Positions 5,382 through 30,804 of a stretch of 48,528 nucleotides of DNA are shown in pieces. Under the pieces are notes generated by a model that had not been told where the DNA came from, did no database searches, and saw only the letters and a list, made by a program, of their open reading frames with translations. The translations under genes and the position numbers were made by a program. Each line of letters begins with the position of its first letter. The first letter of the stretch is position 1. Source of the DNA: Spirochaetia bacterium (GTDB lineage Bacteria > Spirochaetota > Spirochaetia > CADAEX01); the NCBI GenBank assembly GCA_017649605.1, contig JAGCGL010000059.1:1-48528 (forward strand). The letters are read 5' to 3'.

Positions 5382-5678
5382 TTATTTTATAGTGAAGATA
5401 TCGGCGAAGCCGGTGATTGTAAGAACTTCCTTGATATCTTCGCAAACATTGCACAGTTCCATGCTGCCGATCTTGGACATGGTCTTGTGTCCCATAAGGA
5501 ACACTCTGAGTCCTGCAGAAGAGACATAGATAAGATCCTTGAGGTCCAGCACCAGATCTTTTGCGCCATCAAGCTCATTCTTTATAACTGCCTCCAGCTG
5601 GGGTGCTGTAAGGGTATCGAGCCTTCCGCTCAGAGCAAGTGTAAGTTTATCCCCCTCTCTTGTTTTAACAATTTCCAT
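5382..5678 (-). CDS. STAS-domain anti-sigma factor antagonist
   Basis: A 98-residue single-domain STAS protein of the SpoIIAA/RsbV type. The hallmark YVSSAGLRVF segment puts the phosphorylatable serine at 53 or 54. Such proteins bind the kinase/anti-sigma factor when unphosphorylated and release its target. The start at 5678 is preceded by AGGAGG with 6 nt spacing; a longer in-frame version lacks this. It is the last gene of the four-gene operon that starts with an anti-sigma kinase at 7810, lying 10 nt after the STAS-kinase fusion. Phosphorylation by the operon's kinase is likely but inferred. Confidence 0.9.
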   Translation of the reverse strand: MEIVKTREGDKLTLALSGRLDTLTAPQLEAVIKNELDGAKDLVLDLKDLIYVSSAGLRVFLMGHKTMSKIGSMELCNVCEDIKEVLTITGFADIFTIK

Positions 5679-5688
5679 AGTATTCCTC

Positions 5689-6849
5689 CTAGAACATAAG
5701 TGTATCAACAGAATCAAGACGTGTCTCTATCTGATTCTTATAATGTGCAATAAGTTTTCTCCCTTCCTCGGTGTCAAATCCGTTCCTGCGGATAAGACGG
5801 CGCATAAGGCGGGCATAGCCTATTATGGCAGATTTGTTCTCAACTGCCTTCAGCTTATCTGGATCTGTGGTGCCGAAGTAGAGCGGCAGCATCTTTTTCC
5901 AGATAGAAATTGTGGTGTCATAATCGAACCCCTGGAATGCCACAGTAGCAGAGTGGTCGAAGTCGTAGAACCCCACAAATGCATTGTAGATCGAGGCAAA
6001 CTCAAAGAGCGGATTTCCCTGGCACAGGGTATCCATATCGATAAGCAGCACCTCGCCGTTCTGCATCATCACATTCTTTGTGTGGTAGTCGCCGTGGATC
6101 ATATGGTGGTCTACTGGAACTGCTTCCACCAGAGTATGGAGCTTTTCCCATTTTGCGCTGTCAAGATAGTCCTTGAGAAAGTTGACCCAGCCTATCACTA
6201 CAGCACGCTGGTCCGGCATATCCTCGGGTCTTACCTCGGTGGAGTGGATTTTCTTAAGAAGATCCACATAGAGCTCCACATACTTATCCAGGTTCTCGGG
6301 CTCCTCGGCAATAAGCTGAGAGAAGGACTTGGCATTCAGAAGCTCAAAGACTGAGCCGTAGCTGTCCCCTACTTTGGCAACATCATAAGGGATTGCGGTA
6401 GGAATACCCAGCACAAAAGCACGCCGCGCCAGCTCCCGTTCCCGGTGAATATCGGGCAGTGCATCAGCCTTATAGTAGACCTTTACAATGGTGTCTTTAT
6501 CCAGGCGGTAGACCTTGCCGTTGGCCCCCTGCCCTATCACTTCGCATCCTTCGACAGAAAGCTTGCGGTAACCTTTGGAGACAGGAATCATCTCGGTAAA
6601 GCCTGTCATCTCGAAAATCTCGTAGACTGCAGAAGATGCGTTGATGATCTTTAGCTCCGGATACTGCTTCCTGAGCCGCAGAATAACACGGAGTCCAGCA
6701 CTGGATATGTATTCAAGGTTTTCGGCATCAAGTGCCACAGAAGGTGTCTTGCAATCCTTCAGTTTTTCCAGGAGCTCCTCTTCCACAGGGGCTGCATTGC
6801 TGGAATCAATCCGGCCATTAAGCTGTAAATAGAAAATTTCGTCAGCCAA
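5689..6849 (-). CDS. STAS domain fused to aminoglycoside-phosphotransferase-like kinase
   Basis: A 386-residue two-domain protein. Residues 1-95 form a STAS domain with the phospho-acceptor motif ISSAGLRVI (Ser49/50). Residues about 98-386 have the APH/choline-kinase fold: a glycine loop GQGANGK (106-112), a lysine in TIVKVYY (K123), the catalytic loop HGDYHTKN (252-259, with D254 and N259), and a metal-binding D271 in LLIDMD. All key kinase residues are present, so it is probably active on a small molecule or protein. The link to STAS suggests that partner-switching signals control, or are controlled by, phosphorylation. Its start overlaps the end of the upstream hydrolase by 8 nt. Substrate unknown. 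Confidence 0.85.
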   Translation of the reverse strand: MADEIFYLQLNGRIDSSNAAPVEEELLEKLKDCKTPSVALDAENLEYISSAGLRVILRLRKQYPELKIINASSAVYEIFEMTGFTEMIPVSKGYRKLSVEGCEVIGQGANGKVYRLDKDTIVKVYYKADALPDIHRERELARRAFVLGIPTAIPYDVAKVGDSYGSVFELLNAKSFSQLIAEEPENLDKYVELYVDLLKKIHSTEVRPEDMPDQRAVVIGWVNFLKDYLDSAKWEKLHTLVEAVPVDHHMIHGDYHTKNVMMQNGEVLLIDMDTLCQGNPLFEFASIYNAFVGFYDFDHSATVAFQGFDYDTTISIWKKMLPLYFGTTDPDKLKAVENKSAIIGYARLMRRLIRRNGFDTEEGRKLIAHYKNQIETRLDSVDTLMF

Positions 6850-7402
6850 AAACTTCCTCCATAAGAGTCATATATTCACGATAAGCAATTGTATCCTTAA
6901 GATCGGCCAGATACTCTGCTATTGTCCTGTAGTACCACTCCTGCTTTGCAGGATCCTTCTGGTGGAAACACGACCACATCTCTGCTTTACCATACCGTCT
7001 GTAGGCACGGTACAGGGAACGCATGTTGGAAAGCTTATCTCCCATCCACATTATCTTCACTCCCATATCCTTGGTATGCTTGAGCATAAGAAGAGAGTCA
7101 TTCTTTCTCTCCATCCAGGTCTCGGATGCAGGCCTTGGATCAAGCCGGTCCTCGGAATCGCTCTGCACCAGGGCAGAAACACGGGGACCAAACAGCTCCT
7201 TTATAGTCGCAGGCTCAATGCCACAGTCCTCAATAACATCGTGGAGCACACCTGCCGCCATAATATCCTGATCATCAGTTATAGTTGCTATTATAGAGGC
7301 TACTTCGATAGGATGAAGGATATATGGAGTGTTAGTCCTCTTGCGCATCTGTCCCTCGTGAGCTTTTGTTGCAAAGAAAATAGCCTTAGTAAGCATATCC
7401 AT
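6842..7402 (-). CDS. MESH1-like HD-domain (p)ppGpp hydrolase (small alarmone hydrolase)
   Basis: A 186-residue HD-domain protein of RelA/SpoT hydrolase type without a synthetase domain. The metal-binding pattern matches small alarmone hydrolases: H30 in YILHPIEV, H54-D55 in LHDVIED, and D122 in MGDKLSNMR, almost the same spacing as in animal MESH1. Family members cleave pyrophosphate from ppGpp or related nucleotides (MESH1 also acts on NADPH). It lies 6 nt after the anti-sigma kinase gene and overlaps the STAS-kinase gene by 8 nt, so all are coexpressed. This ties a stringent-response-type nucleotide to the switch module. Activity on (p)ppGpp is family knowledge, not shown by sequence alone. 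Confidence 0.85.
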   Translation of the reverse strand: MDMLTKAIFFATKAHEGQMRKRTNTPYILHPIEVASIIATITDDQDIMAAGVLHDVIEDCGIEPATIKELFGPRVSALVQSDSEDRLDPRPASETWMERKNDSLLMLKHTKDMGVKIMWMGDKLSNMRSLYRAYRRYGKAEMWSCFHQKDPAKQEWYYRTIAEYLADLKDTIAYREYMTLMEEVFG

Positions 7403-7408
7403 GGTGTA

Positions 7409-7810
7409 TTATTTCCTCTTGGAAATAGTAAGGATATTCTGATTATCCTTGTACTCGTAGACCATGCTGTCCATGCTCTTCTTGACCATGTAGATACCAA
7501 GTCCGCCAATCTTGCGATCTTCTGCAGACTCTGTGATGTCAGGATCCTCCTTTGCGGTAGGGTCAAAAGGAATACCCGAGTCGACAAGACGGATCACAAT
7601 GCTGTCGCCTGAGGTATCAATCCCAATCTTAACAGTACCCTTTGAATCGGGATAAGCATAGTGAGCAACATTGACAAACAGCTCCTCAAGGGCAACTGCA
7701 AGGGTGACCATAAGCTTCGGATTTGCCTGAGCCTTATCCAGCTCTTCCTCAAGAAATACTATAACTGAGGCAAGCTCGTTAATCTCTGCAGGGAAAATCT
7801 TTTCTGTCAT
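7409..7810 (-). CDS. Anti-sigma factor / serine kinase (HATPase_c_2, RsbW-like)
   Basis: A 133-residue GHKL ATPase-fold protein. The N box EELFVNVAHYAY, the G1 region LVDSGIPFDP and the G2 region GGLGIYMVKK are all present. Such proteins bind a sigma factor or other target and phosphorylate a STAS partner, probably the two STAS proteins encoded downstream. The start at 7810 is chosen because the -10 box ends 8 nt before it; no Shine-Dalgarno exists, so the mRNA is predicted to be leaderless. A start 6 codons earlier (7828) would place the promoter inside the coding region. It heads the operon 7810-5382. Confidence 0.88.
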   Translation of the reverse strand: MTEKIFPAEINELASVIVFLEEELDKAQANPKLMVTLAVALEELFVNVAHYAYPDSKGTVKIGIDTSGDSIVIRLVDSGIPFDPTAKEDPDITESAEDRKIGGLGIYMVKKSMDSMVYEYKDNQNILTISKRK

Positions 7811-7818
7811 ACATATAC

Positions 7819-7870
7819 AGTATATCAAATATGCTTTTCACTTGCAACAAATTGAATAAGCTAATATTCT
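7819..7870. promoter_or_regulatory. Divergent leaderless promoters sharing one palindromic -35 box
   Basis: TTGCAA at 7842-7847 is its own reverse complement. On the plus strand it is followed by 17 nt and TATTCT (7865-7870), then 6 nt to the DUF4416 ATG at 7877. On the minus strand it is followed by 17 nt and TATACT (7824-7819), then 8 nt to the anti-sigma kinase ATG at 7810. Both promoters put transcription start at or within a few bases of the start codon. The shared -35 implies the two directions compete for RNA polymerase. Confidence 0.8.
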
Positions 7871-17903: not shown

Positions 17904-19232
17904 TCAACTGCCGAACCGTGACATAAGGTCCGACTGGTATTTCTTATTTTTCGAGACTTTTTTCATCATAAGTCTTGTTTTATCAAATTTCTTAAGGAAA
18001 CTGTTCACCTCGCCCACCGATACGCCGCTTCCCTTGGCAATCCGCTTTCTTCTGGAAGGACCGATTATACGGTGGTTCTGACGCTCCATCTTGGTCATGG
18101 AGAGGATTATCGCCTCTTCCCTCTTAACCAGGCTGTCGTCCAGTTTGTCCTCGTCTATGTTACCCTTGAGTCCAGGGATCATCTCCATCATCGACTTGAT
18201 GCTGCCCATCTTGCGGATCTTGGCAAACTGCTCAAGGTAATCCTCCAGTGTGAAGGTAGCTTTGTTTATCTTCTCCTGAAGCCTTGCCGCCTCTTCTGCA
18301 TCCACAGTCTCCTGCGCTTTCTCCACCAGGGTGACAATATCGCCCATTCCCAGGATACGGGAAGCGATACGGTCTGGATAGAAGACATCAAGATCCTGGA
18401 TCTTCTCGCCGGTACCGATGAACTTTACCGGCTGACCAGTTATAGTCTTGAGGGAGAGGGCTGCACCGCCACGGGTATCGGAGTCGAACTTGCTAAGGAT
18501 AATACCGGTTATTCCGATCCTCTCGTTGAACTCCTTGGCTATGTCCACTGCATGCTGACCAGTCATTGCATCTGCAACCAGCAGGGCCTCGACCGGATTA
18601 AGGACTTTCTTTATATCCTCAAGCTCCTGCATCATGCTGTCGTCCAGGTGGAGACGGCCCGATGTATCGGCTATAAGGATGTTGAACTGGTTCTTCTGGG
18701 CATAGTGGAGTGCGTTCTTGACTACTGCAACAGGATTCTTGGAATCCTCGCTGTAGACCTCCACGTCTATCTGTGAACCGAGCACTTTAAGCTGCTCAAC
18801 TGCCGCAGGACGAACCAGGTCGGCTGCAACCAGGAGCACCTTGCGCCCCTCTTTCTTAAGGCGGTAGGCCAGCTTGGCCGATGCAGTGGTCTTACCGGAA
18901 CCCTGGAGACCCAGCATAAGGATAGGAGAAAGGGCATCGGGCCCTTTGAGCTGCAGATCCTGTTTCTCGTCCCCCAGGAAGGAGACCATCTTGTCGTAGA
19001 CAATCTTGGTGAACTGCTGGCCTGGATTTACAGAGCGCAGAACCTTCTCGCCCACAGCCTCTTCCAGCGTGGAGTTGATGAAACGGCGGACAACCCGCAG
19101 GTTCACATCGGCGTCAAGGAGTGCGACTTTGATCTCTTCTACTGCATCCTGTACGTTCTTTTCCGAGATGGATGCCTTGCCCGAGATTCTTCTGATTAAA
19201 TCACTGAATTTGTTAGAAATTCCGTCCAGCAT
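17904..19232 (-). CDS. ffh: Signal recognition particle protein Ffh
   Basis: A complete 442-residue SRP GTPase that brings nascent membrane proteins to FtsY. N domain 1-90; G domain with the P-loop LGLQGSGKTTASAKLA (about 108-123), ADLVRPAAVEQL, DTSGRLH (usual DTAGR has Ser here) and SKFDSDTRGGAA. The methionine-rich M domain carries the RNA-binding RKRIAKGSGVSVGEVN helix. No Shine-Dalgarno precedes the ATG. TAATAT (19245-19240) ends 7 nt before it with TTGTAT 19 nt further upstream, so it may be another leaderless gene. It heads the ribosomal operon. The probable SRP RNA it would bind is at 27040-27132. Confidence 0.96.
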   Translation of the reverse strand: MLDGISNKFSDLIRRISGKASISEKNVQDAVEEIKVALLDADVNLRVVRRFINSTLEEAVGEKVLRSVNPGQQFTKIVYDKMVSFLGDEKQDLQLKGPDALSPILMLGLQGSGKTTASAKLAYRLKKEGRKVLLVAADLVRPAAVEQLKVLGSQIDVEVYSEDSKNPVAVVKNALHYAQKNQFNILIADTSGRLHLDDSMMQELEDIKKVLNPVEALLVADAMTGQHAVDIAKEFNERIGITGIILSKFDSDTRGGAALSLKTITGQPVKFIGTGEKIQDLDVFYPDRIASRILGMGDIVTLVEKAQETVDAEEAARLQEKINKATFTLEDYLEQFAKIRKMGSIKSMMEMIPGLKGNIDEDKLDDSLVKREEAIILSMTKMERQNHRIIGPSRRKRIAKGSGVSVGEVNSFLKKFDKTRLMMKKVSKNKKYQSDLMSRFGS

Positions 19233-19382
19233 AGTTAATATATTACCCTAGAGTATTATTTTATATACAAAAAGGGCGGATAATGTCAACCACCAGCTTG
19301 GATTACCTACCTCGATTAGGCGCACTCCCCTCCCTGGTACAAAACCCACCCTAGCGGCTAATTATGTGTTGTTTTTTTGTGC

Positions 19383-19589
19383 CAAGGCCCAGAGGGTGGC
19401 CGGGGGCAGTGCCTATCCGAGGCATCGCGCTCTGCAGCAACAAGCATGGATAGACTGGACAGATTCCGAACTGAATTCGGAATGACATTTTAGAAAAATG
19501 TCGCTTACTGGTCGGGCTGTCCTTTGCTTGTCTGCAGGGTACGCGCCAGCCGAGGGTGGGTACTGCCAGAGGCCACCCTCTGTGCCTTG
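19383..19589. repeat. 207-nt imperfect palindromic element (MITE-like or structured RNA)
   Basis: Within the 405-nt gap between ffh and the phosphatase gene. The ends 19383-19401 and 19571-19589 match as inverted repeats at 18 of 19 positions. Pairing continues inward, with GGCAGT/ACTGCC, CTGCAG/CTGCAG, CAAGCA/TGCTTG and GGACAG/CTGTCC. In the centre are two perfect hairpins (ATTCCGAA/TTCGGAAT and GACATTTT/AAAATGTC). The whole element would fold into one rod with two terminal loops. No coding frame, no clear target-site duplication. The rest of the gap (19233-19382) shows only the ffh promoter region. Confidence 0.75.
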
Positions 19590-19615
19590 ACTTACGAAAA
19601 TAGTAATACTATAAT
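19587..19615 (+). promoter_or_regulatory. Near-consensus promoter partly formed by the palindromic element
   Basis: TTGACT (19587-19592), 17-nt spacer, perfect TATAAT (19610-19615), about 22 nt before the GTG start of the phosphatase gene. The TTG of the -35 box is the last three bases of the palindromic element, so the element's end supplies half the -35. Confidence 0.85.
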
Positions 19616-19637
19616 ATAATTTTAAGCGGAGATAGTT

Positions 19638-20930
19638 GTGAACCCACAGGATGATGAGCTTATATTTGCAGACGAAATCAGTGCACCGGCAGAATCGCCG
19701 GCTCCTCAGGAGACCCATAAAGAGGCTTGGAAGGTGCTGGTGGTGGATGATGAGCCACAGGTGCATACTGTCACCAAGCTTGTCCTGCGGGATCTTACAT
19801 TCAAGGGGCGTAAAATAGAGTTCTACGACGCCTACTCTGCCGCCGAGGCCAAGAAGGTGCTGGCCGAGAACCCGGATGTGTGCCTGGCCCTGGTTGACGT
19901 GGTAATGGAAGAGGACGACGCCGGACTGCGCCTGGTGGAATATATCCGTGACATAATGAACAACAAGGCGATCCGCATAATACTCCGCACCGGCCAGCCG
20001 GGCTATGCCCCCGAGAAAGAAGTAATAATCGACTACGACATCAACGACTATAAGGAAAAGACCGAGATGTCGGCCCAGAAACTCATAACCTGTGTCATAA
20101 CCGCAATCCGCAACTATGAATATATCGATGCCCTCAACAAGCTTACTGCCGAACTGGAGCAGAAGGTGGCAGACCGGGTGGCCGAGCTGGATGAGTCCAA
20201 CCGGAAGCTGCTGGAGGATCAGGAGGCCGGCAAGAAGCTGCAGAACAAGATTCTGCCTAAACCGGAGAAAGAGATAGGTCCATACCTTTTCTCAAGCCAT
20301 CTTTTCCCATCTCTGGTGCTCAGCGGCGACTTTGTGGATTACTTTGCCATCTCAAGCCGTTACATAGGCTTCTATATAGCAGATGTCTCCGGCCACGGAA
20401 TGTCTTCGGCAATAGTGACTGTGCTTCTAAAGAACTTCATAGACAACAAAGTTGAGAAATATGCCCTTCTGGATGACCAGACTGTGCTCCATCCCCAGGA
20501 GATATGCCTCAGGATGAACAGCATCCTCCTCAGGGAGAACCTGGGCAAATACCTGACTATCTTCTATGGCATTATCGATATGGAGACCAACACTTTAAAA
20601 TATGCCAACTGCGGACAGTTCCCATATCCGGTGCTGGTTTCGGATGGCAAAGGAGACTTCCTGGCTGACAAAGGAACTCCGATCGGGCTTTTCAAGACCC
20701 CTGTGATACAGGCAAAGGAGATCAATCTGCCTGACCATTTCTCCATGTTCCTGACCTCCGACGGCCTTCTGGACATTCTGGAGGAGAGCGACCTCGAGGC
20801 AAAGAGCGGCCGAATCCTTTCGGAACTGGCAGAAAATGGGGATTCTCTTGAAAAACTTATAGAAAACTTCAAGATCCGGCAGCATGGCAGCCTGCCAGAT
20901 GATATAACATTCATGCTTATCAGGAAGTAG
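19638..20930 (+). CDS. Response-regulator receiver fused to PP2C-type (SpoIIE/RsbU) serine phosphatase
   Basis: A 430-residue signalling protein. Receiver domain about 30-155: acidic D37/D38, phospho-acceptor D87 (LALVDVVM) and a conserved lysine in NDYKEK. A coiled coil (about 165-215) leads to a SpoIIE-type phosphatase with intact metal motifs: SGDFVDY, ADVSGHGMSS, LTSDGLLD and DDITFML at the C-terminus. It should dephosphorylate STAS proteins under control of an upstream histidine kinase, which is not in this cluster. Start is GTG with GGAG 6 nt upstream. The next gene, a STAS protein and likely substrate, begins 9 nt after the stop. Confidence 0.9.
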   Translation: MNPQDDELIFADEISAPAESPAPQETHKEAWKVLVVDDEPQVHTVTKLVLRDLTFKGRKIEFYDAYSAAEAKKVLAENPDVCLALVDVVMEEDDAGLRLVEYIRDIMNNKAIRIILRTGQPGYAPEKEVIIDYDINDYKEKTEMSAQKLITCVITAIRNYEYIDALNKLTAELEQKVADRVAELDESNRKLLEDQEAGKKLQNKILPKPEKEIGPYLFSSHLFPSLVLSGDFVDYFAISSRYIGFYIADVSGHGMSSAIVTVLLKNFIDNKVEKYALLDDQTVLHPQEICLRMNSILLRENLGKYLTIFYGIIDMETNTLKYANCGQFPYPVLVSDGKGDFLADKGTPIGLFKTPVIQAKEINLPDHFSMFLTSDGLLDILEESDLEAKSGRILSELAENGDSLEKLIENFKIRQHGSLPDDITFMLIRK

Positions 20931-20939
20931 GGAGTTCAG

Positions 20940-21434
20940 ATGGGAAACTACTATTTTGCAAAGGATGGCAACAAAGTTTACTTCAAGCTCACCGGCGTGC
21001 TCAAATATACAACCTGCGGCCACTTTGACACCTTCCTTGACGACTTCATAGCCCATGCATCTGATGTTGAATCGATATCCATCGACCTTACCGAGGCCGA
21101 ATTCCTGGACAGCACAAACCTTGGGTTTCTGGCCAAGATAGCCCAGTTCATGCTGGACAAGAACGGCAGCAGAACCACTATCTACTCCACCTCCAAGGAT
21201 GTGAACCAGACCCTCTGCGGAGTAGGCTTTGACCAGGTGTTCAACCTGGTGGACGGCAAATCAAATCTTGACGATATATTCGGCGAGATAGAAGCTGATA
21301 AATTCGAGAAAAAGGACAAGACCATAATGATGCTGGATGCCCACAGATGCCTGATGAATATAAATGAGAAGAACCAGCAGACCTTCAAGGATGTGGTCAG
21401 CCTGATGGAGCAGAGCCTGAAGAACAAGCTCTGA
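20940..21434 (+). CDS. STAS-domain protein with C-terminal helical extension
   Basis: A 164-residue protein. The STAS domain (1-115) has the acceptor motif FLDSTNLGFLAK with Ser58 as the likely phosphorylated residue. The extra 45-residue C-terminal tail (DKTIMMLDAHRCLMNINEKN...), absent from simple SpoIIAA proteins, is helical and may bind a partner. It lies directly after the PP2C phosphatase that probably acts on it and four bases before the transporter ATPase. The kinase partner is probably the gene at 23515. Confidence 0.87.
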   Translation: MGNYYFAKDGNKVYFKLTGVLKYTTCGHFDTFLDDFIAHASDVESISIDLTEAEFLDSTNLGFLAKIAQFMLDKNGSRTTIYSTSKDVNQTLCGVGFDQVFNLVDGKSNLDDIFGEIEADKFEKKDKTIMMLDAHRCLMNINEKNQQTFKDVVSLMEQSLKNKL

Positions 21435-21438
21435 TACT

Positions 21439-22821
21439 ATGGCCGCCATCCTTTCTGTCAAAGATTTATCCTTCCAATATCCCTCATATCCAGGCCTTGA
21501 GAGCAAATCTCTCTTCAACAGCCTCTCCTTTGACCTTGAGAAAGGGAGCATGACCCTGCTCCTGGCACTGCCCGGCACCGGGAAAACTACCCTTTCCCGT
21601 ATCCTTACAGGACTGGTGCCAGCCTACACCGGCGGCCAGCTTTCAGGCACTGTCGAAAAGAACGGCCAGACCGGCATTGTGTTCCAGAACCCGGACGAAC
21701 AGCTATTCTGCAGTACTGCCGAGAAAGAGGTTGTATTTCCCCTTGAGGCCGCCGGCCTTCCCCGGGAAGAGATAGCCCGCCGCGCCGACCTTGCCTTCCA
21801 GAAAACTGGGATAGAATACCTGCGGTTCAAAGAGCCGATCCACCTTTCGGGGGGCGAGAAGCGTCGCCTTCTGATCAGCGTCCTGTTTGCCACCGACCCC
21901 GACCTGTGGATTCTGGATGAGACATTGGAGGAAATTGACATCCTGGGCAGAGAGGAGATCCTCTCCTTCCTTAAGTCAAGCGGCAAGACAATCCTGATCC
22001 TGACAGCAAAGATGCTGGATGTCTATAAAAAGTATGCCGACAGCTTCTTGGTATATTCAGACGGCACCATGAAACAGTTCCATGATGGAAACAGCCCTGA
22101 GTTTGCAGATGCTGTAAGGAAGGGAGGCTTTGTCCTGGACGAGAAAATGCCGGATGAGAATGCAATCAAAGCTTTAGAAAATATAACTTTTCAAAATCCA
22201 CTTTTAAAAGTTGAAAACCTGCGCTTTTCATACCCAAATTCCGACTTCTCCCTGACCATAGAGAGCTTTGCCCTGGAGCAGGGGAAAACCACTGCTGTCA
22301 TAGGTACCAACGGCTGCGGGAAATCAACCCTGTCCCACATAATAGCCGGGCTTCTGACACCAGGATCCGGCAGGATTCTGATGGAGGGGAAAGAGGTTTC
22401 TGATAAAAAGCTTAACCGGAACTGCTCATACCTTTTCCAGAACCCCGACTACCAGCTGTTCCTGCCCACAGCCCGCGCCGAGCTTGAATATGGCCTCAAG
22501 CTCCAGAAACTGCCCCAGGAGCAGATCGACAGGAAAGTGCAGGAAGCCATAAAAGTCTTCGGGATCGAGACCCCCGATGCGCCGCCTGTCCTTATGAGCT
22601 ACGGGCAGAGGAAAAAGCTGCAGGCCGCCATCTACTGGCTTTTGAACAAGAGAATCGTGATAATAGACGAGGCTGATTCAGGTATCTCCTCCAAAGAATA
22701 CCGGCAGATTATAGAAGCATTCAGAGCATCACCGGCAAATCCGGCCATTCTGATTATAACCCACGATATACAGCTGGCGGCCCTGGAAGCAGACAGCATA
22801 TTCAGGATGGGATCGCTATGA
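21439..22821 (+). CDS. ECF transporter ATPase, two ABC domains fused
   Basis: A 460-residue duplicated ABC ATPase equivalent to EcfA plus EcfA'. Domain 1: Walker A variant ALPGTGKT (43-50), VFQNPDEQLF Q-loop, LSGGEKR signature (136-142), Walker B with D160-E161; the switch histidine is replaced (LILTAKM, A190). Domain 2: GTNGCGKST (289-297), LFQNPDYQLF, signature MSYGQRKK, VIIDEADSG and ILIITHD with the histidine present. So site 1 looks degenerate and site 2 intact. It energises uptake of a vitamin or metal with EcfT (next gene, 4-nt overlap). No S (substrate-binding) component is nearby, so the module may be shared by several. Confidence 0.88.
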   Translation: MAAILSVKDLSFQYPSYPGLESKSLFNSLSFDLEKGSMTLLLALPGTGKTTLSRILTGLVPAYTGGQLSGTVEKNGQTGIVFQNPDEQLFCSTAEKEVVFPLEAAGLPREEIARRADLAFQKTGIEYLRFKEPIHLSGGEKRRLLISVLFATDPDLWILDETLEEIDILGREEILSFLKSSGKTILILTAKMLDVYKKYADSFLVYSDGTMKQFHDGNSPEFADAVRKGGFVLDEKMPDENAIKALENITFQNPLLKVENLRFSYPNSDFSLTIESFALEQGKTTAVIGTNGCGKSTLSHIIAGLLTPGSGRILMEGKEVSDKKLNRNCSYLFQNPDYQLFLPTARAELEYGLKLQKLPQEQIDRKVQEAIKVFGIETPDAPPVLMSYGQRKKLQAAIYWLLNKRIVIIDEADSGISSKEYRQIIEAFRASPANPAILIITHDIQLAALEADSIFRMGSL

Positions 22822-23525
22822 GAAAATCATTCCTCTATCAGGCCGACCCCCGCTTGAAGCTTATCCTCATGCTGTTCTATACAGCCGCATTCTTCTGCCC
22901 GATATCAGCAATCCGGTATGCACTCCTGCTTGTTCCTGTCGTGGCAGCCGGGTTCATCACCTGCGGCTGGAAACCGTTCCTGTCGGTATTCAAGCTTATA
23001 CTGCCCCTCCTGATTCTGACTGCAGTTGTAACTCCATTCTTTTCAGGACTCCACGAGACTGTACGGATAATCCTCAGGTTCATCGGGATCACAGCCCTCT
23101 TCTTCCTCTATTTCAAGACCACCGACCCGGATGAGTTCATCCAGACCTTGCGGTTCTTCGGAATGCCTTACCGTCTGGCTCTGATCATCTCCATATCCAC
23201 CAGCTATATTCCGCTGCTCCTGGACACCTACCACGATGCCGAAGCTGCCCACAGGCTGCGCTACACAGAAAACTGCCCTGAAGTAAACAGATGGAACTTC
23301 ATAGCCAGGTTCCGTGCGATACTTCCGGTACTGGCATCGGTGCTCATCCAGGCTGTGAAGAATATCCCCACCCTGGCCATGGCATTGGAAATAAGGGGTG
23401 TTGGCAAGGCAAAACCCACTGTTTTCAGACCTCTGCACCTTAAGAAACCCCTCCATATACAATTATTGTTGTATTTTCTCCCAATTACTGTTATAATTCT
23501 AATATTGGTGATTTATGCAGCTTAA
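22818..23525 (+). CDS. ecfT: ECF transporter transmembrane T component
   Basis: A 235-residue membrane protein of the EcfT/CbiQ family. It opens DPRLKLILMLFYTAAFF, has about five hydrophobic helices (roughly 13-48, 55-72, 80-98, 115-135 and 212-233), and carries the coupling-helix motif LEIRGVGKA (the family's Ala/Arg-rich motif) near 195. It overlaps the ATPase gene by 4 nt and the following anti-sigma kinase gene by 11 nt. The overlaps show the transporter is truly embedded in the signalling operon. Confidence 0.88.
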   Translation: MRKSFLYQADPRLKLILMLFYTAAFFCPISAIRYALLLVPVVAAGFITCGWKPFLSVFKLILPLLILTAVVTPFFSGLHETVRIILRFIGITALFFLYFKTTDPDEFIQTLRFFGMPYRLALIISISTSYIPLLLDTYHDAEAAHRLRYTENCPEVNRWNFIARFRAILPVLASVLIQAVKNIPTLAMALEIRGVGKAKPTVFRPLHLKKPLHIQLLLYFLPITVIILILVIYAA

Positions 23526-23928
23526 TTTTTCTATACCTGGCGATGACATGGACATGGCTGGAATTGCATCCAGCACCCTTAAGAAAAAACTCCAGCAGAT
23601 CGGCGTTGACAACTCTGTCATAAAGCGGACAGTAGTAGCCCTTTACGAGGCCGAAATCAACATGGTGATCCACGGCGGAGGCGGCGATATAACTATAAAT
23701 GTCACCCCTACCGAGATTCAGTGCGAGCTGGTAGACCATGGTCCAGGCATTGCAGATGTGGGTCTTGCCATGCAGGAGGGATACTCCACCGCCACCGACG
23801 CTATCCGGGAGATGGGATTCGGAGCAGGTATGGGATTGCCAAATATCCAGAGGAACTCCGACCACATGGAGATTCACACTGTCCCTGGCGAGGGAACTAC
23901 TGTCAAGATAATGATAAAGATAGGATAA
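23515..23928 (+). CDS. Anti-sigma regulatory factor / serine kinase (RsbT-like HATPase)
   Basis: A 137-residue GHKL-fold protein with N box VALYEAEINMVIHGGGG, G1 DHGPGIADV and G2 FGAGMGLPNIQRNSDHM, closest in look to RsbT/SpoIIAB-like kinases. Together with the PP2C phosphatase and the STAS protein upstream it completes a partner switch. The start overlaps ecfT by 11 nt with only a weak ribosome site, so it may depend on coupling. The hydrogenase-like gene follows 4 nt later, suggesting these two act together; this pairing is known in Clostridia and Thermotogales sensory hydrogenase loci. Confidence 0.88.
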   Translation: MQLNFSIPGDDMDMAGIASSTLKKKLQQIGVDNSVIKRTVVALYEAEINMVIHGGGGDITINVTPTEIQCELVDHGPGIADVGLAMQEGYSTATDAIREMGFGAGMGLPNIQRNSDHMEIHTVPGEGTTVKIMIKIG

Positions 23929-23932
23929 GCAG

Positions 23933-25231
23933 ATGAGCGAAGAATACTTACATTCGGTAACACTGGATAAAGATCTCTGCAAGGGGTGCACAAACTGCAT
24001 TTCCCACTGTCCTACCGAGGCTATCCGGGTACGCGACGGCAAGGCAATGATCATCTCCAACCGGTGCATCGACTGCGGCCAGTGCATAAGGACCTGTCCT
24101 TCCCACGCCAAGAAGGCGGTGAGCGACCCGCTGGATATGCTCAATAAATACACATTCAAGGTGGCGCTGCCTGCACCAAGCTTCTATGCCCAGTTCAAGA
24201 ATGTTCCTATCGATACAGTCCTGACTGCTCTTAAGAAAATCGGCTTTGATGATGTGTACGAGGTTGCCAGCGCTGCCGAGATCGCATCGATTGCAACAGC
24301 TGAGTTGCTTGAGAAAGTCAAATCTCCGCGCCCCATGATATCATCATCCTGCCCTGCAGTTGTACGGCTTATCCAGGTGCGGTTCCCAAGCCTTATAGAG
24401 CATGTAATCAAGATCCAGACCCCGATGGAGATAGCGGCAAGAATAGTAAAGAACCAGATTTATCCCGACAAGCGGGGACTGGGGGTATTCTTCATCTCTC
24501 CATGTCCTGCAAAAGTGACCAGCGTGAGGGTCCCATTAGGAAACGAGAAATCCGAGGTGGACGGTGTGATTGCCCAGAAGGATATCTACCCGGCACTTCG
24601 CAAAATCATAAAGACTATCGACAAACCGGAACACCTTTCCAAGGCATCCAGCCTGGGAATCAAATGGGGACACAGCGACGGCGAGAGCGAAGCAGTCAAT
24701 TCCAAGAAAAGTATTTCTGTAGATGGCATTGACCATGTAATAAGAGTTCTTGAGCAGATAGAGAGCGAGGACTTCCATCATATCGAGTTCATCGAAGCCA
24801 TGGCATGCCCTGGAGGCTGTGTGGGTGGCACCCTGACAGTGGAGAACCCGTTCATCGCCCGTTCAAGGCTCAAGAGATACAGCATGGCCTGCGAGAACCG
24901 CGGAATCAAGGATTCTGACCAGCTCACCGAATTCGATATCTCATGGACCAAGGAGATCTATTCCCATCCAGTCCTCAAGCTGAGCGAGAATATGTCCGAG
25001 GCTATCAAGATGATGGATGAGATCGAGAAGATCGACTCAGAGCTTCCAGGCCTTGACTGCGGAAGCTGCGGTGCCCCGACATGCCATTCACTGGCCGAGG
25101 ATATTGTCACAGGCAAAGCCCAGAAGACAGACTGCATCTTCATTCTGCGGGATGAGATAAAGAAAGTGGCTGGACAGATGGCAGAGCTTGAGCGGCGTAT
25201 GCCTCAGACACGGAATTTCGAGCAGAAATAA
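23933..25231 (+). CDS. Sensory-type [FeFe]-hydrogenase-like iron-sulfur protein
   Basis: A 432-residue protein. Residues 16-60 carry two [4Fe-4S] motifs (CKGCTNCISHC and CIDCGQCIRTC). The H-cluster domain follows with all four cluster-ligand cysteines: C140 (MISSSCPAVV), C191 (FISPCPAKV), and C292/C296 (MACPGGCVGG). A C-terminal FeS domain, CGSCGAPTC plus a Cys 17 residues on, matches PF04060. The proton-relay cysteine before the first ligand in catalytic enzymes is Ser139 here, and the Met of the MPC motif is Ser. This points to a sensor (HsfB-like group) rather than a hydrogen producer. It sits in the partner-switching operon. Confidence 0.87.
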   Translation: MSEEYLHSVTLDKDLCKGCTNCISHCPTEAIRVRDGKAMIISNRCIDCGQCIRTCPSHAKKAVSDPLDMLNKYTFKVALPAPSFYAQFKNVPIDTVLTALKKIGFDDVYEVASAAEIASIATAELLEKVKSPRPMISSSCPAVVRLIQVRFPSLIEHVIKIQTPMEIAARIVKNQIYPDKRGLGVFFISPCPAKVTSVRVPLGNEKSEVDGVIAQKDIYPALRKIIKTIDKPEHLSKASSLGIKWGHSDGESEAVNSKKSISVDGIDHVIRVLEQIESEDFHHIEFIEAMACPGGCVGGTLTVENPFIARSRLKRYSMACENRGIKDSDQLTEFDISWTKEIYSHPVLKLSENMSEAIKMMDEIEKIDSELPGLDCGSCGAPTCHSLAEDIVTGKAQKTDCIFILRDEIKKVAGQMAELERRMPQTRNFEQK

Positions 25232-27271: not shown

Positions 27272-28447
27272 ATGATTAATCGTATTGCAAAAAAAGCATT
27301 GCTTAGATTATCTGGGCAATTTCCTGTAGTCGGCATAACAGGTCCTAGGCAGAGCGGGAAGACCACCCTTACAAAGGAAACATTTCCGCAAAAACAGTAT
27401 GTCTCGTTTGACGATAAGAACATGAGGGAAATAGCCACATCCAATCCATCCGATTTTCTTAGAGCTTTCCCAGATGGTCTTATTATTGATGAGGCCCAGA
27501 AGGTTCCAGATATTTTTGATGCCATCAAACTTACTGTTGATAAAGAGCAATCACCTCCGGGAAAATTTATTCTTACGGGATCAAGTCAATTCCGATTAAA
27601 GAAGAATATGTCAGACAGCCTTTCAGGAAGAGCCGCTTTCCTGTCACTGCTTCCGTTTGCTATGCAAGAGCTTAAGAATGCAGACCTGCTTCCTGATGAT
27701 CCATATGAATTTATTCTAAAGGGACAATACCCACCTCTCTATGATAAAAACAAACATTTTATTCCAGATGACTGGTTTGAGGCCTACATTGACACATATC
27801 TTTCACGAGATGTCAAAGGAAAAATAAATGATTCAAATATGTCCACATTCAGAAAATTCATTCAGGTCTGTGCTGTATATAGCGGACATATGCTGTCTAT
27901 GGACAGCATTGCAAAAAATGTAGGAATAACAGCTCCTACAGTCAAAAACTGGCTTTCTATCTTGGAACAGTCATATATAATTCATTTTTTGGAACCAGAC
28001 ACAAACAACTTAGGGCATGCCTTAGTTAAAACTCCTAAATTATATTTTATTGACACTGGGTTGCTGTGTCATCTCCTGCGTATGGAATCTACGAAAGACC
28101 TTCTTCTTGACCGCATGAAAGATGCTGTTGTAGAAACCTTTGCCGTGTCTGAACTGTTAAAAGCCAGAAGCAATATAGCAAAAAAGGCAAACATAACTTA
28201 TTTCCGAGACCAGAAAGGTTTTGAAGTAGATATAATAGCCGATTGGAAAAAAACATTTGCCCTAGAAATCAAGAGTTCAGCCGATACAGAAGCCATTATG
28301 TCATCGAACCTGAGAAAATATTTAAAGATGAGACAGGAAACTCAGACAAAAGGATCAATCCTCTACTTGGGAGATATAAGTGCCACAATAAATAATATCG
28401 ATTATGTCAGCTGGAAAGACTGGGGATCATTTTTCAGCAGCAAGTAA
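27272..28447 (+). CDS. AAA ATPase with DUF4143 nuclease-like C-terminal domain
   Basis: A 391-residue protein. The N-terminal AAA_14 domain has Walker A GPRQSGKT (24-31), Walker B GLIIDEAQKVP (about 69-79) and the sensor stretch FILTGSSQF. The middle is a winged-helix region (ITAPTVKNWLSILEQSYIIHFL), and the C-terminal DUF4143 has a PD-(D/E)xK-like motif: FEVDIIADW followed by FALEIKSS. These proteins are widespread in anaerobes and their role is unsettled (mobile element, defence or toxin links have been suggested). No Shine-Dalgarno: leaderless start predicted. The gene looks more AT-rich than the housekeeping genes around it, consistent with transfer. Confidence 0.85.
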   Translation: MINRIAKKALLRLSGQFPVVGITGPRQSGKTTLTKETFPQKQYVSFDDKNMREIATSNPSDFLRAFPDGLIIDEAQKVPDIFDAIKLTVDKEQSPPGKFILTGSSQFRLKKNMSDSLSGRAAFLSLLPFAMQELKNADLLPDDPYEFILKGQYPPLYDKNKHFIPDDWFEAYIDTYLSRDVKGKINDSNMSTFRKFIQVCAVYSGHMLSMDSIAKNVGITAPTVKNWLSILEQSYIIHFLEPDTNNLGHALVKTPKLYFIDTGLLCHLLRMESTKDLLLDRMKDAVVETFAVSELLKARSNIAKKANITYFRDQKGFEVDIIADWKKTFALEIKSSADTEAIMSSNLRKYLKMRQETQTKGSILYLGDISATINNIDYVSWKDWGSFFSSK

Positions 28448-28475
28448 CAAAAGTGCTGGAAATGATAATTAGGCA

Positions 28476-28509
28476 TAAAAACTTGCCCTGCCAGACGGCA
28501 GGGCAAGTT
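28476..28509 (-). terminator. Rho-independent terminator of the repeat lipoprotein gene
   Basis: A perfect 13-bp stem (28480-28492 with 28497-28509) and 4-nt loop. On the minus strand it ends in TTTTT, so it terminates the lipoprotein gene whose stop is 10 nt away. It may also serve the DUF4143 gene on the plus strand. Confidence 0.9.
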
Positions 28510-28519
28510 CATATAGCAA

Positions 28520-30769
28520 CTACTGTTTGCAGACTATGCGGAAACCATAGAAGTTGCCATCATAATGGTAACCATTCTCATAAGTTATTGCGCACCATGA
28601 AGCTGGTGAACCAAAACTTCCTCCGCATAAATAACGCCAGGTAGGACCACCACTATAATATACGTCCCAACACCATTCCCATACATTTCCACTCATATCA
28701 TATAGACCATAACCGTTCGGATTCTTCTGTCCTACTACCTGCAAAGAGTATGTATTCTCTTTATACCAAGCCACATCATCTATTGTGTCGCTTCCAGCAT
28801 ATGTGTATGCCTCACCTCCGCTGGCGGCATACCGCCATTCTTCTACGGTCGGGAGCCGGAATCCACTCTTGGATGTATCCTGTGTCACATCATTTCCGTT
28901 GATGGTATATACTGGTTCAAGCCCAGTAAATGTGCTAAGTGCATTACAGAATGCTAACGCTTCAAACCATCCCACATCCAAAACTGGCAGAGTATCTCCA
29001 ACATAAAGACTTGGATTCTCACCCATTATCGCTGTATAAAGTGCCTGTGTAACCTCGGTGCTAAGCATCTTGAAGGTCTTTCCTGGTATGTTCACCATAT
29101 TATTAAGTGTCCATTTTGCATATACTGTTATATTGCCTGTGACTGTCGTTCCAGCTGTGAATGCATCTCCGGCACCGCCCGGCTGGGTATACCAGCCTCC
29201 GAATGTGAAGCATGTCTTCTCTGGTGCTGTAGGAAGCGAGCCCACTGTGGTGGCAGGACTAACAACTGTCTTGGTTGCCGGACTTACTGGGGTAGTCGCC
29301 CCCTGGTCATTGAAGGTAACAGTGTAAACAAGGTTCCACTTTGCATAGACTGTGATATCGCCTGTGACTGCGGTTTCGGCCGTAAACTCAGTTCCACCGC
29401 CGCCTGCCTGGGTATACCATCCACCGAAGGCAAAGTTTGTCTTCTCCGGCGGTGTAGGAAGCGAGCCTACTGTGGTGGCCGGGCTGTTCACTGTCTTTGT
29501 TGACGGAGTTACGTGAGTTGTTGCGTCCTGATCATCAAAAGTAACTGTGTAGCTGTAATCAACCCAATATGCATAGACTGTTATATTCCCGGTCACAGGT
29601 GTGCTGGCCGTGAACTGTGTGCCGCCTCCGCCTGTCTGGGTGTACCAGCCTGCGAATATCTGACCGTTCTTTGCCGGTGCTGTCGGCAGTGCATCTATTG
29701 TTGTAGCCGGACTGTTCACTGCCTTGCTGTCCGGGCTTACTGGTGTGGTTGCTCCCTGATCATCAAAGGCCACGGTATAGCTGTACTCTTCCCAGTATGC
29801 GTAGACTGTCAGATTAATTGTAAACGGTGTGGTTGCGGTAAACTCTGTACCGGTTCCACCAGTCCCTGTGAACCATCCACCGAAATTGTATCCCGTCTTC
29901 TGCGGCGGTGTCGGTAATGTTCCAACTATGACAGAAGGCGGATTGACTGTCATGCTTGCAGGGCTTGCTGGTGTGGTAGCCCCCTGGCTGTCGAAAGTTA
30001 CAGTATGCGGCTCGTCGGTGTAGCCCGCTATTATCCCAGGATTCGCATTCCACCCCTCTGCGGCCTGATATGCAGCAACTGCCGCAATCGGCACATATAC
30101 TGTGGCGGGACAGCTGCCGAGGAACGCAGGATCAACCTCCCGTGGGATTTCGCTCCTCATCACTATGCTGGTGAGGTTTGTGCATCCGTCGAACGCTCCG
30201 GCCATTATCCATAGCACGCTGGCAGGGACTGTCACATCTGTCAGATTGGTGCACCCTTGGAAGGCGTTATCCCCTATTATGTTCATAGGCTTGCCGTCTA
30301 TAGCAGAAGGTATGTCAAGTGATGACAGCTGCCTGCCCCTAGCTGTGAGCCCCGTTATCTGCAGGAAGTATCCGCTCGGGAGGGCCGGCACACCATAGAG
30401 GGACGGTGACGGCGAGCCCCCGCTCATGAGGAGCACTTCATATATCGCTGCCCACTTGGGGTACAGCACAAGGTCATCCCCCTTGTACTTCGCCCCGGGG
30501 GCATAGTTCTTGCCTGTGCCGTCAGCCTTCGTGTTCCAGCCGTCGAACAGATACCCGGCCTTCGCAAGGTTCCCGGTGTTCTCCCGGATCACAACCTCTT
30601 CCCCGGAGCTGAACTGCCCCTCAGGGCCTGCGCCCGACTCCGCCCCGTTCACATCGTAGTTCACGGTGAAGCCCTCTCCTGCTCCCCCTCCGCCGCCGCC
30701 TCCGCAGCTTGTAGCAAAAAGGATCAAACTTGTTATTAATAGGATAGAGATCGCTGGCCTGAGTCTCAC
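28520..30769 (-). CDS. Surface lipoprotein with InlB-like repeats, LRR and FGE-like domain
   Basis: A 749-residue lipoprotein. The signal peptide ends LILFATSC (lipid Cys22), followed by seven glycines. Next come one Listeria-Bacteroides repeat (about 33-107), a BspA-like leucine-rich region (about 150-230, with IIGDNAFQGCTNLTDVTVP), four more InlB-type repeats in tandem (about 255-555, each ending in VYAYW or VYAKW), and a formylglycine-enzyme-like/sulfatase-modifying domain (about 558-749: FRLPTVEEWRYAASGG, YDMSGNVWEWCWD). It should be surface-exposed and adhesive or sugar-binding. Start: GTG at 30769, with AGGAGG 8 nt upstream; an earlier GTG overlaps that site. The promoter has a nine-G spacer tract. 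Confidence 0.88.
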   Translation of the reverse strand: MRLRPAISILLITSLILFATSCGGGGGGGAGEGFTVNYDVNGAESGAGPEGQFSSGEEVVIRENTGNLAKAGYLFDGWNTKADGTGKNYAPGAKYKGDDLVLYPKWAAIYEVLLMSGGSPSPSLYGVPALPSGYFLQITGLTARGRQLSSLDIPSAIDGKPMNIIGDNAFQGCTNLTDVTVPASVLWIMAGAFDGCTNLTSIVMRSEIPREVDPAFLGSCPATVYVPIAAVAAYQAAEGWNANPGIIAGYTDEPHTVTFDSQGATTPASPASMTVNPPSVIVGTLPTPPQKTGYNFGGWFTGTGGTGTEFTATTPFTINLTVYAYWEEYSYTVAFDDQGATTPVSPDSKAVNSPATTIDALPTAPAKNGQIFAGWYTQTGGGGTQFTASTPVTGNITVYAYWVDYSYTVTFDDQDATTHVTPSTKTVNSPATTVGSLPTPPEKTNFAFGGWYTQAGGGGTEFTAETAVTGDITVYAKWNLVYTVTFNDQGATTPVSPATKTVVSPATTVGSLPTAPEKTCFTFGGWYTQPGGAGDAFTAGTTVTGNITVYAKWTLNNMVNIPGKTFKMLSTEVTQALYTAIMGENPSLYVGDTLPVLDVGWFEALAFCNALSTFTGLEPVYTINGNDVTQDTSKSGFRLPTVEEWRYAASGGEAYTYAGSDTIDDVAWYKENTYSLQVVGQKNPNGYGLYDMSGNVWEWCWDVYYSGGPTWRYLCGGSFGSPASWCAITYENGYHYDGNFYGFRIVCKQ
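29105..30007 (-). repeat. Tandem array of four InlB-type repeat units within the lipoprotein gene
   Basis: Four consecutive units of about 225-230 nt encode the repeats that begin Y/H-TV-x-F-DxQ-x-ATT and end VYAYW/VYAKW. Long identical stretches between units, especially around GSLPTPPEK and GGWYTQ, make copy-number change by recombination likely. Confidence 0.8.
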
Positions 30770-30804
30770 GGCAGACACCTCCTGAAGATAGGGTTTCTAC
30801 CGTA

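Follow-up and report, generated by a model that had tools for sequence, protein, structure and literature searches.

The window analysed here is a 48,528-nucleotide (nt) stretch of a Spirochaetia bacterium genome (contig JAGCGL010000059.1 of assembly GCA_017649605.1, a 1.79-Mb draft in 136 contigs, referred to below as G000). Positions 19638 to 25231 hold six genes, which encode a PP2C phosphatase, a STAS protein, the ATPase (EcfA) and coupling protein (EcfT) of an energy-coupling factor (ECF) transporter, a histidine kinase-like ATPase (HATPase) and a sensory-type [FeFe]-hydrogenase protein, HydS. An initial annotation, made from the DNA letters alone, had described six plus-strand open reading frames and five spacings, all of which match the coordinates exactly (in operon order a 9-nt gap, a 4-nt gap, overlaps of 4 and 11 nt, and a 4-nt gap). 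Its gene names were borne out by Pfam, which returned SpoIIE with a sub-cut-off Response_reg match, STAS, two ABC_tran domains, CbiQ, HATPase_c_2, and Fe_hyd_lg_C with FeS and Fer4 domains.

19587..19615, plus strand: promoter-like site TTGACT-17-TATAAT (11 of 12 consensus positions)
19638..20930, plus strand: response-regulator phosphatase of SpoIIE type (REC-PP2C), 430 amino acids (aa), RssB-like (Pfam, NCBIfam)
20940..21434, plus strand: STAS protein with a C-terminal extension, 164 aa, RssC-like (Pfam, NCBIfam)
21435..21438, plus strand: STAS/EcfA boundary, a 4-nt gap and rearrangement join (flank comparison with congener G001)
21439..22821, plus strand: EcfA, two fused ATP-binding cassette (ABC) ATPase domains, 460 aa (ABC_tran twice; ECF_ATPase_1)
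22818..23525, plus strand: EcfT, transmembrane coupling protein, 235 aa (CbiQ, 57.7 bits)
23515..23928, plus strand: HATPase_c_2 protein of anti-sigma/STAS-kinase type, 137 aa (Pfam, 43.3 bits)
23933..25231, plus strand: H-cluster protein HydS, group D [FeFe]-hydrogenase type (TamHydS type), 432 aa (Fe_hyd_lg_C, 134.8 bits; FeS domain)
17904..19232, minus strand: ffh, left flank, common to the PP2C-STAS locus of G001 (contig C20)
25232..25987, minus strand: rnc, convergent right flank, common to the ECF-HATPase-HydS locus of G001 (contig C34)

The genes had been described as a single co-directional unit, and this held up. TTGACT-17-TATAAT is the sole strong plus-strand promoter-like site within 19100-25200, and no plus-strand terminator-like sites were found between the six genes. 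TTGACTT and a TATAAT-like box can be aligned across the six genus members compared, one of them being G001, the most divergent congener, where the conserved site precedes PP2C-STAS alone. Against two congeners, the ratio of non-synonymous to synonymous substitution rates (dN/dS) lies between 0.006 and 0.11 per gene for all six genes, indicating purifying selection, with the strongest constraint on HATPase and the H-cluster protein. The same six genes occur in the same order on intact contigs of four congeners (G002, G003, G004 and G006); in G005, where EcfA is interrupted by the end of a contig, both halves fit the six-gene order. As the order recurs in congeners, chance or assembly error is excluded. 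The operon is kept in six related gut spirochaete species (hereafter the crown clade, window species included), and the STAS-EcfA gap measures 4 nt in 5/5 genomes with an intact contig. The six-gene unit is thus real and maintained as a transcription unit, co-transcription itself being predicted from the spacing and the conserved promoter.

Between ffh and the operon promoter, the window also carries an imperfect 52-nt inverted repeat (19372-19600; 73%, arms 125 nt apart), which is absent from the congeners' aligned upstream regions and is possibly a small mobile element.

Origin of the STAS/EcfA boundary and the transporter core

Beyond the crown clade the operon is found in parts. Both G001 and the sister genus (G008, G009, G010) have the order EcfA-EcfT-[S]-HATPase-HydS, where S is the S component gene, with no PP2C-STAS in front. 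The ECF core precedes HATPase-HydS in 10 of 11 family genomes; the exception, G007 (99% complete), keeps PP2C-STAS and is without EcfA, EcfS, HATPase and HydS, and G008 (also 99% complete) shows the reverse, ECF-HATPase-HydS without PP2C-STAS. The initial annotation had named absence of the ECF genes from relatives as evidence against its reading; the five closest species all have them, but they are missing from the HATPase-HydS locus in all relatives examined outside the family.

The two halves of the window lie on two contigs of G001. On C20, PP2C-STAS sits directly beside homologues (assigned from sequence) of ffh, rpsP, rimM, trmD and rplS, which form the window's left flank (families F6, F7, F8, F10, F11, F17 and F18 in common with locus L280), and is followed behind STAS by tRNA-Trp and 5S rRNA. 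On C34, ECF-HATPase-HydS ends convergently at rnc, the window's right flank (families F9, F12 and F14 in common with locus L037). The STAS/EcfA boundary is therefore a rearrangement join, and it is fixed in the six species. Phylogeny was taken from EcfA and PP2C trees, not from HydS, and in these G001 is sister to the crown clade (support 1.0), with the sister genus outside. The simplest history is consequently a chromosomal join of STAS to EcfA on the stem of the six-species clade.

Gene order across the family indicates that the ECF genes were already next to HATPase-HydS when PP2C-STAS was placed upstream. In this history, an ECF transporter of original order A-T-S became the upstream part of a HATPase-HydS operon in the family ancestor. 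The S gene later left the operon in the crown clade, where an EcfT/HATPase overlap of 11 nt is consistent with the deletion of an S gene once there. The last step was a rearrangement, in the common ancestor of the six species, that set a REC-PP2C/STAS pair with its own promoter ahead of EcfA, since when all six genes are predicted, from spacing and promoter conservation, to be read from the PP2C promoter.

The initial interpretation is borne out only in part, since this history revises the idea that a signalling unit has a transporter embedded in it. PP2C-STAS and HATPase-HydS do not form a long-standing unit: they occupy different loci in G001 and in the sister genus, and G007 and G008 each carry one module alone. 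Because PP2C-STAS came last, by the join, the 'embedded' position of the transporter is a by-product of arrival order. We lean towards regarding the operon as a composite of three older modules with a recent join, with the ECF core as co-expressed cargo and not as a target. The arrangement is new and the modules are known; the locus shows, with dated intermediates, the assembly of a six-gene operon from separate modules.

As to the transporter itself, the initial annotation was right about an EcfA and EcfT core and needs correcting in one respect, as no S component lies inside the operon. The cognate S gene is on another contig (G000:C35:35674-36189) and belongs to family PF07155, with 4hzu chain S as its nearest match in the Protein Data Bank; in the sister genus it lies between EcfT and HATPase, and in G001 it is fused to EcfT. 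The HmpT-like ECF transporter of 4hzu shares the EcfA domains, EcfT and a PF07155 S component, whereas here both ATPase domains are in one protein, the S gene is at a separate locus in the clade, and the system is a steady neighbour of HATPase-HydS within one family. EcfA scores 235.5 bits against ECF_ATPase_1 and retains its Walker A/B and signature motifs. Its domain 1 is without the H-loop histidine throughout the subfamily; a degenerate or dead transporter was considered and rejected, since this loss and the MSYGQ signature are common to the whole subfamily.

In six relatives outside the family, guaB and/or guaA belong to the same ECF cluster, and in five of these the adjacency to S is clear; in the genus, the relocated S gene and purB-purA-guaA are arranged divergently. 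Because the S gene adjoins purine genes, we regard a purine or a related compound as the probable substrate, with moderate confidence. The relocated S gene also precedes a CitMHS-family transporter gene (L097, G000:C35, 4246-6214, minus strand). No riboswitch or other known RNA element was found upstream of the ECF genes in the window or in 13 related loci.

The HATPase-HydS pair

Among the 80 best loci from a genome-wide scan of Spirochaetes and Clostridia, a close HATPase homologue lies directly upstream of HydS in 79, and the contig ends there in the 80th. The same adjacency was found in 14/14 relatives mapped by gene calls or tblastn. The lasting unit is thus HATPase plus the H-cluster protein. 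Neither PP2C nor STAS was detected within 9 kb of the pair in any of the 80 loci (Clostridia and other Spirochaetes) by narrow profiles, which distant SpoIIE or STAS proteins could escape.

HydS was examined against the criteria for group D [FeFe]-hydrogenases, namely a C-terminal Cx2Cx4Cx16C motif, no PAS domain, loss of C299 and replacement of M353 by Ser or Thr (PMC8163306). Its C-terminal motif (C376, C379, C384, C401) is invariant with exact spacing, a Pfam scan found no PAS domain, and both C299 (CpI numbering) and M353 are Ser, in the motifs SSSC-P and ISPC (Ser139 and Ser189). The H-cluster ligands C140, C191, C292 and C296, together with K194, are invariant among 15 homologues. HydS accordingly has the sequence features of group D (M2e, TamHydS type), in agreement with the sensory type first assigned to it; no close solved structure was found. 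The neighbouring HATPase reaches 48.8 bits with the SpoIIAB model (cut-off 135) and has intact N, G1 and G2 boxes (E45, N49, D74xG76xG78 and G101-G107 conserved), so that the anti-sigma-type assignment stands with its ATP-binding boxes retained.

The closest described system is TamHydS of Thermoanaerobacter mathranii (PMC8163306, PMC13104023), which shares with HydS two N-terminal [4Fe-4S] motifs, the same H-domain replacements, the C-terminal Cx2Cx4Cx16C motif, the lack of a PAS domain and an adjoining HATPase gene. The TamHydS gene lies upstream of a trimeric group A hydrogenase, whereas in the window species HydABC is on another contig (C136); HydS here instead neighbours ECF and PP2C-STAS genes, in a genus in which no HydG was found. 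A histidine kinase-like ATPase beside TamHydS had already been noted (PMC8163306), and what is shown here is the near-invariance of the pairing. The signalling partner of group D hydrogenases has been posed as a question (PMC13104023); near-invariant pairing across phyla names the small HATPase as a candidate. In Thermoanaerobacter wiegelii the gene order is DRTGG, HATPase, HydS, DRTGG and PHP, followed by trimeric hydrogenase genes. Elsewhere in the window genome, locus L292 (G000:C46, 1367-3340) encodes a CBS-CBS-HATPase protein 43.6% identical to the operon HATPase, followed by one protein of DRTGG-like/Hpr_kinase_N type and one of PHP type; the set is similar to part of the HydS operon of Thermoanaerobacter but has no HydS.

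We posit that HydS reads H2 or redox state and sets HATPase activity, the pairing being observed and the sensing proposed. HydG supplies CO and CN for the H-cluster. No HydG was found in 7/7 genus genomes (G000-G006) by a search that does find it in G007, G008 and G013, and this leaves two readings of sensing by HydS: either a HydG replacement exists, or HydS senses redox state via its iron-sulphur (Fe-S) clusters. The HydE/HydF/HydG set is a requirement for function and not a defining sequence feature of group D. A reading of HydS as a sensor of redox state or Fe-S and not of H2, the genus being unable to finish an H-cluster without HydG, accords with this consistent absence; we nevertheless consider it rather unlikely, since the H-cluster ligands of HydS are invariant and the genus keeps HydE (two copies in most genomes), HydF, HydA and HydS. 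In the window genome itself, HydF scores 581 bits, the two copies of HydE score 531 and 315 bits, and HydA belongs to group A6. It would be odd for HydG to be lost while everything else stayed, and a replacement could have escaped recognition. If the genus does make an H-cluster without HydG, the known maturation pathway is called into question. Literature searches on TM1421/TM1422 and on genomes without HydG returned nothing useful.

Proposed partner switching across the modules

The REC-PP2C protein matches Pfam SpoIIE (98.6 bits), with Response_reg just under its cut-off (28.7 against 30.2 bits), and the aspartate motifs SGDF, ADVSGHG, SDG and DDIT are visible in its translation, which supports its naming as a PP2C phosphatase. 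The STAS protein (Pfam STAS, 27.8 bits) has the phosphorylatable serine expected of it, Ser58 (DSTNLG), invariant among orthologues. The NCBIfam models RssB_Pseudo and RssC_Pseudo (NF045505, NF045506) give 213.7 bits for the first protein (curated cut-off 700) and 104.8 bits for the second (cut-off 250), and we class the pair as an RssB-RssC-like bicistron, below curated cut-offs. As in RssB-RssC of Pseudomonadaceae, whose known target is RpoS (PMC12923157), REC-PP2C is followed by STAS, and these models are the best NCBIfam matches for both; unlike RssB-RssC, the pair scores far below the cut-offs and is part of a longer operon.

With HATPase, the operon's added STAS and PP2C make up a complete kinase-substrate-phosphatase set. 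The same components, REC-PP2C, a STAS protein with a phosphorylatable serine and a HATPase kinase, occur in CrsR-CrsA and HsbR-HsbA (PMC6482189). There all enzymatic domains are in one protein, whereas here the 430-aa protein stops after PP2C, and HATPase is a separate gene, behind the transporter and coupled to HydS. By analogy, it is plausible that HATPase phosphorylates STAS at Ser58, and REC-PP2C would remove the phosphate. For the full scheme, a split CrsR-CrsA/HsbR-HsbA system in which HydS would gate the kinase, we put the chances at about even.

Three observations weigh against this scheme. Among 49 relatives outside the family, the presence of HATPase-HydS and that of PP2C-STAS are not associated (Fisher p = 0.28). 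Other HATPase_c_2 proteins could serve STAS, including one encoded at window positions 7409-7828 and the CBS-HATPase on C46. Separate inheritance of the modules, as read from gene order, also weakens a HATPase-STAS partnership. In the same 49 relatives the ECF subfamily and HydS are associated (p = 0.0004 by genome and 0.0007 by genus, uncorrected for phylogeny), which shared anaerobic life could explain.

The genes may alternatively be co-transcribed and nothing more, with PP2C-STAS using another HATPase, HATPase-HydS having its own target, and the join retained because it brought a suitable promoter. The modules are indeed found apart (G007, G008, G020 and G059 versus G032, G035 and others), show no statistical association outside the family, and share the window with an RsbW-like HATPase and its STAS partners 12 kb away; PP2C-STAS, moreover, had the same promoter before the join. 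Such an operon of convenience is harder to reconcile with an order and a constant 4-nt spacing maintained in six species, with three partner-switch component types in one predicted transcript that reproduce the CrsR/HsbR domain set, and with G001, which has PP2C-STAS and no match to the window's RsbW-like type. We hold it to be a serious possibility that falls somewhat short of even chances.

MlaB, a STAS protein, is a binding partner of the ABC ATPase MlaF, and by analogy a phosphorylation-switched STAS might act directly on the ECF transporter, as the initial annotation had proposed. In the crown clade STAS does adjoin EcfA, at an unvarying distance of 4 nt, yet the two are neighbours through the join alone. 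RssC-like STAS proteins occur without this EcfA in G007, G020, G034, G054 and G059, and EcfA without RssC-like STAS in G008, G031, G035, G039 and others. Of all the steps proposed, this one found the least support and none from the comparisons, and we regard it as very improbable. It is likewise improbable, if slightly less so, that the join made a new circuit, in which H2 or redox state, via HydS, HATPase and STAS, would control transcription and, in addition, how active or how well supplied the purine-type ECF transporter is.

Two further features of the window are of separate interest. A second STAS/HATPase cluster (5382-7828, minus strand), conserved in G006, comprises an RsbW-like HATPase (86 bits), an HD_4 protein, a fusion of STAS with an APH-type kinase, and a STAS protein; it holds a candidate competing kinase for STAS. 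Downstream of the operon, between coaD and the next conserved gene, positions 27272-30778 form an insert that is not present in congeners; it encodes an ATPase (ATP/GTP-binding motif; DUF4143-like by eye) and a protein of 752 aa that carries Listeria-Bacteroides-type repeats and whose end resembles a formylglycine-generating enzyme.

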